A stretch of 32,252 nt of DNA from an uncultured Lachnospiraceae bacterium (GTDB taxonomy: Bacteria > Bacillota > Clostridia > Lachnospirales > Lachnospiraceae). The stretch covers positions 1 through 32,252 of the forward strand of contig CANQVT010000027.1 in assembly GCA_947627365.1 (NCBI GenBank), read 5' to 3'. Positions 1-4,036 of this stretch are shown here, piece by piece (the first letter of the stretch is position 1; every line of letters begins with the position of its first letter). Below the pieces are notes generated by a model that saw only the letters and a list, made by a program, of their open reading frames with translations, had not been told where the DNA came from and did not search any database. The translations under genes were made by a program, and so were the position numbers.

Positions 1-1971
1 GATCCCGTCTGGACAAAGATCGTTATGGGCGCTTCGGAGGGAGATATGTCGATGTTTTCCTCCCTGAACCTGCAGATCGCGTGGCTGAATGCCGGGGTTG
101 ACGCGGTGATCGAATGGCAGTGGGACGGAGGCCATGTTCCCTCCGAGATACTGGGCAATTCTTTCTCCCTCTATGTCGACCAGATGTACGGGAAGTATGT
201 GGAAGGTGCGGTCGCGATCGAAAAAGCCGCGGCGACAAAGCAGACGACAAACGGAACAGCGGAAACGGCGACCGGGACGGACATCAGTGGATGGGTAAAT
301 GATGAGGATACGACCGCTGTATCCTTCAGTCTTTCCGACGCAGCGGCTTACAGGACGAAAGGCGCGAGCAAGGCGATGCCAGGGTTTGACGTGATTGATT
401 ACGGACAGGAGGATTATGTATTCGGCAGCTCCGAAAAGGACGCGCGGCACTGGGATACGTATCTGCTTGATATTTTTGAGGAACATGCGGGCACCCTTGA
501 ACCGCTGCTTTCTGTGGAGAGCGGGGAATCGTCGAAAGAGCTTTCGGCAGAGGAAGAACTTTCGGCGGATGAGCAGCCGGGAGATGGGCAGACGCCGCCA
601 GAGCTTCCGGGCGGAGAGCAGCCAGGGAATGGACAGACGCCGCCGGAGCTTCCGGACGGGGAGCAGCCAAACGGAGAACAGCCGGGCGGTATGGGAGGCG
701 GCCAGCCGGGCGGTTTTGGCGGCTCCGGCGAGGTGACGCAGGGAACCGCCGCCAACACGCTTGCTGAGGACGGAACATACAACGACTTCGAGTATATTTC
801 TTCCGGTGATGACGAAAACGCTCTGCGGATAGACGGCGCGACAGCCACCCTGGATGGGATTACGGTGGAGAAGTCCGCCGGAAAATCCTCCAACACGGAG
901 GATGGGGATTTTTACGGAATGAACGCGGCGCTGCTTGCGACAAACGGCGCGACGGTGACGATCAAAAATGCCTCGGTCAGTTCCTCTGCGCAGAACGGAA
1001 ACGGTGTGTTCAGCTACGGCAGCGGGACGACGGTCAACATTTCCGATTCCACGATCACGACCACTGCGGACAATTCCGGCGGGATCCAGACGACCGGCGG
1101 CGGCACGACGAATGCGGCAAACCTGACCGTTGAGACGTCCGGGAATTCTTCCGCAGCGATCCGTTCCGACCGGGGAGGCGGAACTGTGAATGTGGACGGT
1201 GGCAGCTATACGACAAACGGATACAATTCTCCCGCGGTGTATTCCACCGCCGCGATCACCGTGAAAAACGCCGCGCTTACCGCTAACAATTCCGAGGCGC
1301 TTGTCGTTGAAGGGAAGAATTCAATCGCGCTTGAGAATTGCACCGTAATCGGAAATATGAGCGATACGAAGGGAAGCAGCTCGGATGAGAACGTGCACAA
1401 TGTGATGATCTACCAGTCCATGTCCGGAGACGCCGACGTGGGAACCTCCGAATTTACCATGAACGGCGGGATGCTGATTTCTGAAAACGGAGATATGTTC
1501 TATGTGACAAACACCCACTGCGCCGTGAACCTCTGCGGCGTGGAGCTCGTTAATCAGGACAGCGACGGTTATCTGTTGAACGTGAGCGGCAACTCCGCGT
1601 CCCGCGGCTGGGGCACTGCCGGGGCAAACGGCGGGCAGGTGGAATTCACCGCGACCGACCAGACGATGAACGGCGACATCATAGTCGACAGCATTTCTAA
1701 CCTGAATTTGACCCTTGCCGGTAGCAGTGACTTTACAGGCACGATCAACATCGTTGACAACGCGCAGGGCGGAGCGGCGGTCGCTGACAATGCCGTCGTT
1801 ACCGTGGAGAGCGGAAGTGTCTGGACGCTGACCGGAGACTGTTCGCTCACAAGTTTGACCAACCAGGGGACGATCGATTTCAATGGCTATACCATCACTC
1901 TGGCAGATGGGACTGTGCTGGAAGAAAGCAAAATTTCCAGCAATCTCTCCGCAACCGGCGTAAATACCTGA
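1..1971 (+). CDS. Secreted tannase-like esterase fused to a beta-helix domain (5' partial)
   Basis: The frame is open from base 1, so the true start and signal peptide lie upstream; the ATG at 25 is internal. The first ~65 residues resemble the C-terminal catalytic end of tannase/feruloyl-esterase hydrolases: an Asp in GASEGD, a LNLQIAW helix and a candidate catalytic His in WDGGHVPSE. About 60 residues later, KAMPGFDVIDYG...YVFG with DARHWD resembles a segment that in classical tannases lies before the catalytic Asp/His. A linker with 15-residue EQPG-GQTPPELP repeats follows, then about 400 residues of Gly/Asn/Thr/Ser-rich short beta-strands (GATVTIKNA, GTTVNISDS, GGTVNVDGG) typical of a right-handed beta-helix of the pectate-lyase/autotransporter type. 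No sortase signal or C-terminal membrane helix is seen. Inferred role: an extracellular esterase with a glycan-binding or adhesive beta-helix. The 3' end overlaps the reverse-strand LysR gene by 85 bp. Confidence 0.7.
   Translation, partial: DPVWTKIVMGASEGDMSMFSSLNLQIAWLNAGVDAVIEWQWDGGHVPSEILGNSFSLYVDQMYGKYVEGAVAIEKAAATKQTTNGTAETATGTDISGWVNDEDTTAVSFSLSDAAAYRTKGASKAMPGFDVIDYGQEDYVFGSSEKDARHWDTYLLDIFEEHAGTLEPLLSVESGESSKELSAEEELSADEQPGDGQTPPELPGGEQPGNGQTPPELPDGEQPNGEQPGGMGGGQPGGFGGSGEVTQGTAANTLAEDGTYNDFEYISSGDDENALRIDGATATLDGITVEKSAGKSSNTEDGDFYGMNAALLATNGATVTIKNASVSSSAQNGNGVFSYGSGTTVNISDSTITTTADNSGGIQTTGGGTTNAANLTVETSGNSSAAIRSDRGGGTVNVDGGSYTTNGYNSPAVYSTAAITVKNAALTANNSEALVVEGKNSIALENCTVIGNMSDTKGSSSDENVHNVMIYQSMSGDADVGTSEFTMNGGMLISENGDMFYVTNTHCAVNLCGVELVNQDSDGYLLNVSGNSASRGWGTAGANGGQVEFTATDQTMNGDIIVDSISNLNLTLAGSSDFTGTINIVDNAQGGAAVADNAVVTVESGSVWTLTGDCSLTSLTNQGTIDFNGYTITLADGTVLEESKISSNLSATGVNT
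571..690 (+). repeat. 45-bp tandem repeat in the linker of the esterase/beta-helix gene
   Basis: Copies begin with GAGCAGCC at 571, 616 and 661, an exact 45-bp period. Each encodes 15 residues of the form EQPG(D/N)GQTPPELP(G/D)G; the third copy degenerates into EQPNGEQPGG and a Gly-rich run. The period keeps the reading frame, so copy number could vary without disrupting the protein. Confidence 0.85.
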
Positions 1972-2872: not shown

Positions 2873-3034
2873 AAAATTAAAGGACAGTTTGTCCTACGTT
2901 GTTACTGTTCAAACCAGGCCGAAGCACTTGTTGCTGAGGTTGTAAGAACGTAAAACAAGTGGCAGTTTGGGCAGGCAGAAGGAAAAGGGTAAAAATAAAT
3001 CATGAAAACAAGCAGGAAAGGACGGTATGGAAAT

Positions 3035-4036
3035 ATGGCAAATGTTGAGAAACTGGAACTGACACAGAAATGGGATAAGACATTCCCGAAGAGCGAAAAG
3101 GTAAACCATCGGAAAGTGACGTTTGTGAACCGCTACGGGATCACGCTGGCAGCGGATGAGTATGCGCCGAAAAGCGCGTCCGGCAAGCTCCCGGCGATCG
3201 CCGTCTGCGGACCGTTCGGCGCGGTGAAGGAACAGTGCGCAGGACTCTACGCGCAGACGATGGCGGAGAGGGGCTTTTTGACGGTCGCATTTGACCCTTC
3301 GTTTACGGGAGAAAGCGGCGGCAATGTTCGCTATATGGCGTCGCCCGACATCAACACGGAGGATTTCATGGCGGCGGTGGATTATCTGTCCCTGCATGAG
3401 AGCGCGGATCCGGAGAGGATCGGCATCATCGGGATCTGCGGCTGGGGCGGCCTCGCGATCAACACCGCGGCGATCGACACCAGGATTAAAGCGACGGTTG
3501 CTTCCACGATGTACGATATGGCGAGGGTGAACGCCAACGGCTATTTTGACGCCGAGGACAGCGAGGAAGCGCGTTACCAGAAAAGGGCAGCGATGTGTGC
3601 GCAGAGGCTTGCGGATCTGAAAGCGGGCGAGTACGCGCTGGGCGGCGGCGTGGTCGATCCGCTGCCGGAGGACGCGCCGTTCTTCGTAAAGGATTATCAT
3701 GATTATTACAAGACGGATCGCGGCTACCACGCCCGCTCCCTAAACTCCAACGGCGGCTGGAACGTGATCGGCTGCGAATCCTTCCTGAACCAGCCGATCA
3801 ACCAGTACAGCAACGAGATCCGCAGCGCCGTCCTGGTCATGCATGGCGACAAGGCGCATTCCTGCTATTTCGGGAAAGACGCTTACGCGGCCATGATAAA
3901 AGACAGCATGTACGCGGATAACAAGGAGCTGCTGCTGATTCCGGGCGCGGTGCATACTGACCTGTACGACGGCGGCGAAAAAGACGCTATTCCGTTCGAT
4001 AAGCTGGAGGAATTCTTCCACAAGTATATGAAATAA
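3035..4036 (+). CDS. YcjY-like alpha/beta hydrolase with cysteine nucleophile
   Basis: A 333-residue cytoplasmic hydrolase of the dienelactone-hydrolase/YcjY type. The nucleophile elbow reads IIGICGWGG, placing Cys135 where most esterases have Ser. Asp272 in VMHGDKAHS and His307 in PGAVHTDLYD complete a candidate triad. The N-terminal HRKVTFVNRYGITLAADEYAP strand is typical of this family. I chose ATG 3035 (MANVEKLEL) because it matches the usual family start and has AGGAAAGGA at 3014-3022; an in-frame ATG at 3002 would add 11 residues and also has a purine-rich upstream site. Probably controlled by the divergent LysR regulator. The substrate is unknown. Confidence 0.85.
   Translation: MANVEKLELTQKWDKTFPKSEKVNHRKVTFVNRYGITLAADEYAPKSASGKLPAIAVCGPFGAVKEQCAGLYAQTMAERGFLTVAFDPSFTGESGGNVRYMASPDINTEDFMAAVDYLSLHESADPERIGIIGICGWGGLAINTAAIDTRIKATVASTMYDMARVNANGYFDAEDSEEARYQKRAAMCAQRLADLKAGEYALGGGVVDPLPEDAPFFVKDYHDYYKTDRGYHARSLNSNGGWNVIGCESFLNQPINQYSNEIRSAVLVMHGDKAHSCYFGKDAYAAMIKDSMYADNKELLLIPGAVHTDLYDGGEKDAIPFDKLEEFFHKYMK

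Follow-up and report, generated by a model that had tools for sequence, protein, structure and literature searches.

The gene that opens the analysed stretch (the window, 32,252 nucleotides of a contig from an uncultured Lachnospiraceae bacterium) probably encodes a secreted member of the bacterial tannase superfamily that cleaves galloyl esters, in which the segment that would grip the substrate (the K segment) has moved behind the catalytic His. We put the probability of this reading, which comes from sequence comparison, at roughly 0.78. The change of segment order in the window protein is itself confirmed and real. Homology, profiles and many genomes uphold both the tannase-like character and the permuted order put forward in the original prediction, while its assignment of the catalytic Asp has to be replaced. 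If the reading holds, an active site has been rebuilt after a substrate-binding segment changed its place in the chain.

Gene layout and order of the segments

The window holds the C-terminal part of the gene as a startless open frame of 656 residues, truncated on its 5' side by the contig edge (Table 1). The last 77 bases of contig C102 are identical to the first 77 of the window, and the frame runs on across this overlap. Joining C102 to the window contig (C27) gives a gene of 1,229 residues, which starts with ATG at L003:1543 and has AGGAGG just upstream. A single-contig relative reads through the join, with roughly 93% DNA identity to either side of it, and the one-contig version in genome G339 shows 91% identity over 1,261 aligned columns and is unbroken at the junction. 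An acetyltransferase gene adjoins the esterase gene in both the window genome and G339. The recovered upstream half, where an unrelated fold would have counted against the original prediction, bears a tannase nucleophile region.

Read by eye from N to C terminus, the joined protein opens with a signal sequence, followed by the nucleophile region (VSTGGSGGGAH) and the lid. A Gly/Met/Asp-rich spacer then leads to the segment bearing GASEGD and WDGGH; the K segment (KAMPGFD, GQEDYVFG) comes next, and a Pro/Gly linker connects it to a beta-helix ending near GYTITLADGT. The appended beta-helix of about 400 residues and its repeat linker, as originally described, are seen in the window frame itself. 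The Gly/Asp-rich spacer between the lid and the catalytic acid/His (DH) segment measures 43-195 residues (median 94) in the 59 rows of set A2, which consists of 59 selected lobes. It occupies the place where classical tannases carry the K segment.

Table 1. Features of the permuted esterase gene; positions are those of the window unless another contig is named
Feature	Position	Strand	Basis or remark
Permuted tannase-like esterase with beta-helix, C-terminal 656 codons and stop of a 1,229-codon gene	1..1971	+	
First 573 codons of the same gene	contig C102, L003:1543-3338		77-base overlap with the window
Catalytic acid/His (DH) segment, end only (start on C102)	1..210	+	presumed last helix to ~210
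Glu at the subtype B catalytic Asp position	37-39	+	alignment to solved tannases
Asp of GASEGD, equivalent of the gallate-binding Asp	43-45	+	alignment
His of WDGGH, equivalent of the catalytic His	133-135	+	
Relocated gallate-binding K segment, GTDISGW...KAMPGFDVIDYGQEDYVFG...DARHW	274..453	+	profiles, alignment
Lys and Glu of the K segment (KAMPGFD...GQEDYVFG)	Lys 370-372, Glu 409-411	+	
Low-complexity Pro/Gly/Glu-rich linker with PPELPxGEQPxNGQ-type repeats, esterase to beta-helix	511..750	+	limits by eye
Right-handed beta-helix domain, ~400 residues	751..1968	+	family shared with esterase-free proteins in many Lachnospiraceae

Classical tannases run from the nucleophile segment (S) through K to DH. 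Alignment of the window protein to known tannases is not collinear with this order; the Asp/His segment lies ahead of K, as predicted, and reciprocal profiles and many genomes confirm the reversal. In a phmmer comparison with solved tannases, query residues 131-261 match 3wa6 51-185, while 658-725 match 302-372 and 557-629 match 390-462, a swapped pair; the K and DH stretches are each non-significant when taken alone (i-E 52 to 200). Profiles of the classical segments gave S-DH-K in 36 of 60 permuted proteins (the window protein in its joined form plus the 59 rows of the alignment) at i-E<0.01. The K match of the other 24 is weak (i-E 0.01-0.10) and likewise falls behind DH. Scores of the K single-segment HMM are weak, about 5-15 bits. 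On classical proteins the same profiles gave S-K-DH in 30 of 31, eight of the 31 having served to build them; the exception, L022, was without a K match. L021 and L191, which have no ORF with the nucleophile motif, were left out of this comparison. Conversely, profiles of the permuted segments gave pS-pK-pDH in 27 of the 31 classical proteins and S alone in three, and in the last one (L031) a poor DH match (E 0.037) fell in an unrelated place.

Alignment with hhalign gave the same correspondence. The relocated block (656-761, L079 numbering) matched classical positions 288-397 with a probability of 96.9% (E 2.4e-10), and the Asp/His block (519-655, L079 numbering) matched 333-458 with 98.0% (E 1.8e-12); each of 20 column-shuffled controls reached at most 1.3%. 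The classical alignment comprised 23 rows, without L178. Against the six subtype A sequences alone, the probabilities were 91.0% for K and 95.4% for DH. The match of the N block extends to classical position 340 and thereby overlaps the matching place of the K block. The stretch before the Gly spacer looked by eye like the remnant of a first K copy, as would be left by duplication and decay, but the profile test does not support this: taken by itself, the stretch scored 0.15% with its own C-terminal K and 0.6% with the subtype A K region, and its matches elsewhere in classical tannases reached 3-18%. No intermediate with two K segments was noticed in a non-exhaustive reading of the extracted ORFs.

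Active site, substrate and competing readings

The claim that the protein is tannase-like was borne out by matches to the PDB tannases 6yq4, 3wa6 and 4j0c at E of about 1e-12 (8.2e-13 to 1.5e-11), as well as by the NCBIfam tannase models (E 1.8e-33 for tannase_A and 1.1e-29 for tannase_B). In 59 permuted sequences, Ser203, Glu595, Asp597, His627 and Lys706 (L079 numbering) are invariant, and Glu719 is conserved in at least 90%. The family thus retains the GxSxG nucleophile, the catalytic His and counterparts of the Lys, Glu and Asp that bind gallate, and these residues match the triad and gallate residues given for TanLp and CbTan1-3 in the excerpted text of PMC8958541. According to the same excerpts, Lys, Glu and Asp hold the gallate hydroxyls in TanLp-type enzymes, and the catalytic triad of subtype B is Ser, Asp and His. 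The catalytic Asp position is occupied by Glu in all 59 permuted rows. The Asp of GASEGD had been taken as the catalytic one; the alignment puts Glu at that position and makes this Asp the equivalent of the gallate-binding Asp.

Subtype B (NF041556; TanLp 3wa6/4j0c, FnTan 6yq4, CbTan2 7q6y) shares the nucleophile segment, GxSxG and the catalytic His with the permuted family, and its gallate-binding Lys, Glu and Asp have equivalents there. It differs in order (S-K-DH as against S-DH-K), in its catalytic acid (Asp as against Glu) and in length, which is about 470-570 residues in the excerpts of PMC8958541 as against about 740-940 in unfused permuted frames with their Gly/Asp-rich spacer. In subtype A (NF041555; CbTan1), the catalytic Asp position is likewise not Asp, and CbTan1 carries Gln there (PMC8958541, excerpts) where the permuted family has Glu; all six sampled members of this subtype have the order S-K-DH. 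The characterised tannase TanALb, also from a Lachnospiraceae bacterium, is a 68-kDa protein with a large insertion at residues 341-450; its catalytic residues Asp582 and His614 are close to the C terminus, and the docked-ligand residue Lys482 stands ahead of both (PMC8715002). By this numbering alone its order is classical, because Lys482 precedes the other two. Other permuted hydrolases, as far as the excerpts of PMC11878206 describe them, likewise have an altered order of elements within the alpha/beta hydrolase fold, but there the peripheral strands beta1 and beta2 are permuted, whereas in the tannase it is a substrate-binding segment next to the lid that now follows the catalytic His. None of the open PMC titles and abstracts among the matches listed was recognised as describing a permuted tannase.

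The enzyme is most likely a galloyl esterase. The original prediction had offered a polyphenol or feruloyl esterase; the polyphenol part is likely to hold, and galloyl rather than feruloyl esters are favoured because residues corresponding to the gallate-binding Lys, Glu and Asp are kept. The moved segment would still reach the gallate pocket, the best sign being that both of its gallate residues are retained. Although it now follows the catalytic His instead of standing between lid and Asp/His segment, it would land, once the chain folds, in its usual place beside the nucleophile Ser, supplying the Lys and Glu that grip the gallate hydroxyls. Lys and Glu from the moved arm would then hold the gallate together with the Asp, and a Ser-His-Glu triad would cleave galloyl esters outside the cell. 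In fused forms, the beta-helix behind the moved segment may anchor the enzyme to a surface or to plant material, and the clamping of plant polymers put forward in the original prediction would be one form of this; other forms may be attached by a lipid or a membrane helix. Possible gains for the cell are the sugar of gallotannins, relief from tannin binding, or the use of gallate where a UbiD-family decarboxylase is present.

One competing reading accepts the swap and supposes that the enzyme has drifted to a feruloyl, acetyl or bacterial surface ester and is no tannase. It draws on the long stem branch leading to the permuted clade (3.6 changes per column), the replacement of the catalytic Asp by Glu, the failure to recognise by eye any gallate-pathway gene beside the loci read, and the limited occurrence of UbiD, which 7 of 18 carriers have. 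We nevertheless consider it unlikely, given that the invariant Lys and Asp and the near-invariant Glu of the 59 sequences are not expected to be needed for other esters. The UbiD carriers belong to 4 of 12 genera and compare with 18 of 150 family genomes, a set in which at least G000, G103 and G130 are themselves carriers; the association is suggestive only. No UbiD-family decarboxylase was found in the window genome (84.5% complete), where gallate therefore need not be metabolised further. A permuted tannase is also carried by Eubacterium oxidoreducens (L140), a species reported to degrade gallate (PMC4585845, excerpt).

Less probable still is a swapped dimer, in which the C-terminal K segment completes the site of a neighbouring molecule. 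Such swapping is conceivable since the segment is terminal and joined by a connection of about 25 residues, from the presumed last core helix (~650) to 674-676 (L079 numbering), but the classical enzymes CbTan2 and TanALb are reported as monomers in the excerpts of PMC8958541 and PMC8715002. Finally, the idea that two unrelated contigs were joined and the swap is only apparent, prompted by the split of the gene over two contigs of a fragmented assembly, is refuted, because the order DH then K can be read from the window contig alone and is found again on single contigs in G339, G338, G329 and the one-contig genome G906, as well as in the entries for Eubacterium oxidoreducens DSM 3217 and Blautia sp. 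An249.

The permuted clade and its distribution

In a tree built from 54 rows of the N-terminal part common to both orders, the 24 permuted rows form one clade with 100/100 support, apart from the sampled subtypes A and B. These rows are 21 of the 59 A2 lobes and L188-L190; L194 was left out. The six subtype A rows group together (100/100), and the subtype B rows do not form a single group. The A and B labels were set by motif, and six classical rows were scanned against NCBIfam, among which L022 scored 283 of 300 bits and reached neither cut-off. The permuted clade is placed with little certainty among the classical rows, some of which (L016, L022) sit on long branches.

By NCBIfam score, the four members scanned fit neither tannase subtype. 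The window protein scores 104 bits on tannase_B (NF041556; curated cut-off 300) and 116 bits on tannase_A (NF041555; curated cut-off 550), and its relatives L007, L009 and L013 score 106-130 and 111-137 bits, respectively. Full-length tannase models consequently under-call such proteins, as all four lie below both curated cut-offs.

Strong permuted relatives occur in 12 of 299 genomes of the family, the window's own included, with fragments in G159 besides. Within the genus, 24 of 47 genomes (own included) match the first ~170 residues of the window part. A scan of species genomes returned 302 relatives, of which the best 80 were kept; 60 of these have all four motifs in permuted order and 20 are without one or more motifs by the patterns applied. 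Classical order was found in 0 of these 80, a set that was picked by similarity to the permuted family and is therefore uninformative on the frequency of classical tannases. By record title, the carriers are Lachnospiraceae, Oscillospiraceae and other Clostridia, many of them sampled from guts, often those of animals, together with Eubacterium oxidoreducens and Blautia sp. An249. Beyond the family, carriers include G906 and G1049, both from another family of the same class. A sample of 398 genomes spread over the phylum yielded no permuted tannase other than that of the window; nine further genomes match by the nucleophile region, all of them in classical order. The permuted clade offers directly testable proteins for the handling of dietary tannins by gut microbes.

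Broken permuted genes were also observed, as fragments in L021 (G159) and with an internal stop or frame break in L012/L187 (G198), and loss of the gene may be under way in some lineages. Several sampled subtype A members (L018, L029, L195, L196, L198) show, by eye, an insert rich in Gly and Met that follows the lid, roughly where the permuted family has its spacer. In L016 (G298), a divergent tannase frame runs on past the esterase part into sequence that seems to resemble the beginning of a glycoside hydrolase family 3 domain.

Beta-helix, attachment and neighbouring genes

The beta-helix domain is found in 75 of 299 family genomes. In 29 beta-helix loci that were read, 28 frames have the beta-helix motif and none of the 28 an esterase motif. 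These esterase-free proteins (set A3) carry the same domain with up to ~80% identity to that of the window, which follows an esterase. Against PF13229, the window domain gives a weak generic match of 17.2 bits, below the curated cut-off of 25.9; 13 of 33 members of the beta-helix family match at E<=0.01 (best 2.3e-08), and L057 scores 32.6 bits. The best match of the beta-helix profile is Vag8 (E 1.7e-11), presumably a binding beta-helix of an autotransporter, with the score spread over several short stretches. That the domain is instead an enzyme of lyase or epimerase type, and no binding or anchoring part, seems doubtful. Polar stretches that do not vary across the family (A3: R155-S-D-R-G, Y238-Q-S) and a weak match to the mannuronan C5-epimerase AlgE4 (E 0.005) would fit an enzyme, but Vag8 is the better match and the domain searches recognised no catalytic family.

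Fused frames occur in 6 of 47 genomes of the genus (G000, G339, G338, G337, G331, G329) and, outside it, in L102, L117 and L135, which are Oscillospiraceae 'Lapin' records, presumably from rabbit. Six of the best 80 of 302 loci are fused (L090, L091, L093, L102, L117, L135), the first three being taken to be identical with the genes of G338, G339 and G329. In the beta-helix tree, built by a quick method with SH-aLRT support alone, the fused domains stand in two places, each amid esterase-free proteins and separated from the other by branches with SH-aLRT 100; L044, labelled stand-alone in that tree, lies at a contig edge and its frame is without any searched motif. Most simply, two beta-helix subfamilies were fused separately behind permuted tannases, which suggests that both parts work together. 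A single fusion followed by beta-helix exchange and losses is also possible, because the tannase tree puts the fused tannases close together, in a group that also holds the unfused L094 and L162. In G333, a tannase without beta-helix (L081:7312-9630) lies ~3.3 kb from a beta-helix gene (L081:12934-14439) in which a signal peptide is joined straight onto linker and beta-helix; here a fusion seems to have come apart.

A more far-reaching proposal regards the family as a third natural tannase subtype whose active-site segment is a C-terminal arm, so that in the fused proteins recognition is mechanically tied to the beta-helix. The beta-helix would dock on tannin-coated plant or cell surfaces and present or withdraw the gallate-gripping arm, and the Gly/Asp-rich spacer would let the core open and close. 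We regard this as speculative and rather improbable.

The extracellular location named in the original prediction agrees with the signal sequence seen by eye and with lipobox-like heads in 57 of 79 relatives (loose pattern), from which export of the permuted esterase would follow. In addition, the permuted tannase L190 (G1049) has, by eye, an apparent C-terminal membrane helix and a lysine-rich tail, and its enzyme part should therefore face outward.

A two-component system often adjoins unfused permuted tannase genes (L181, L182, L185, L186 and many of L090-L169). A kinase match was obtained in 35 of 80 permuted loci, a regulator match in 36 and both in 32, some of them weak. Classical loci gave 0 of 25 and 2 of 25, respectively, with shorter flanks that make them an unequal control. 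A similar kinase/regulator pair stands before the beta-helix gene in L087. Two genes downstream of the esterase, at window positions 3002-4036, lies a second alpha/beta-hydrolase-like gene, of dienelactone hydrolase type by reading.
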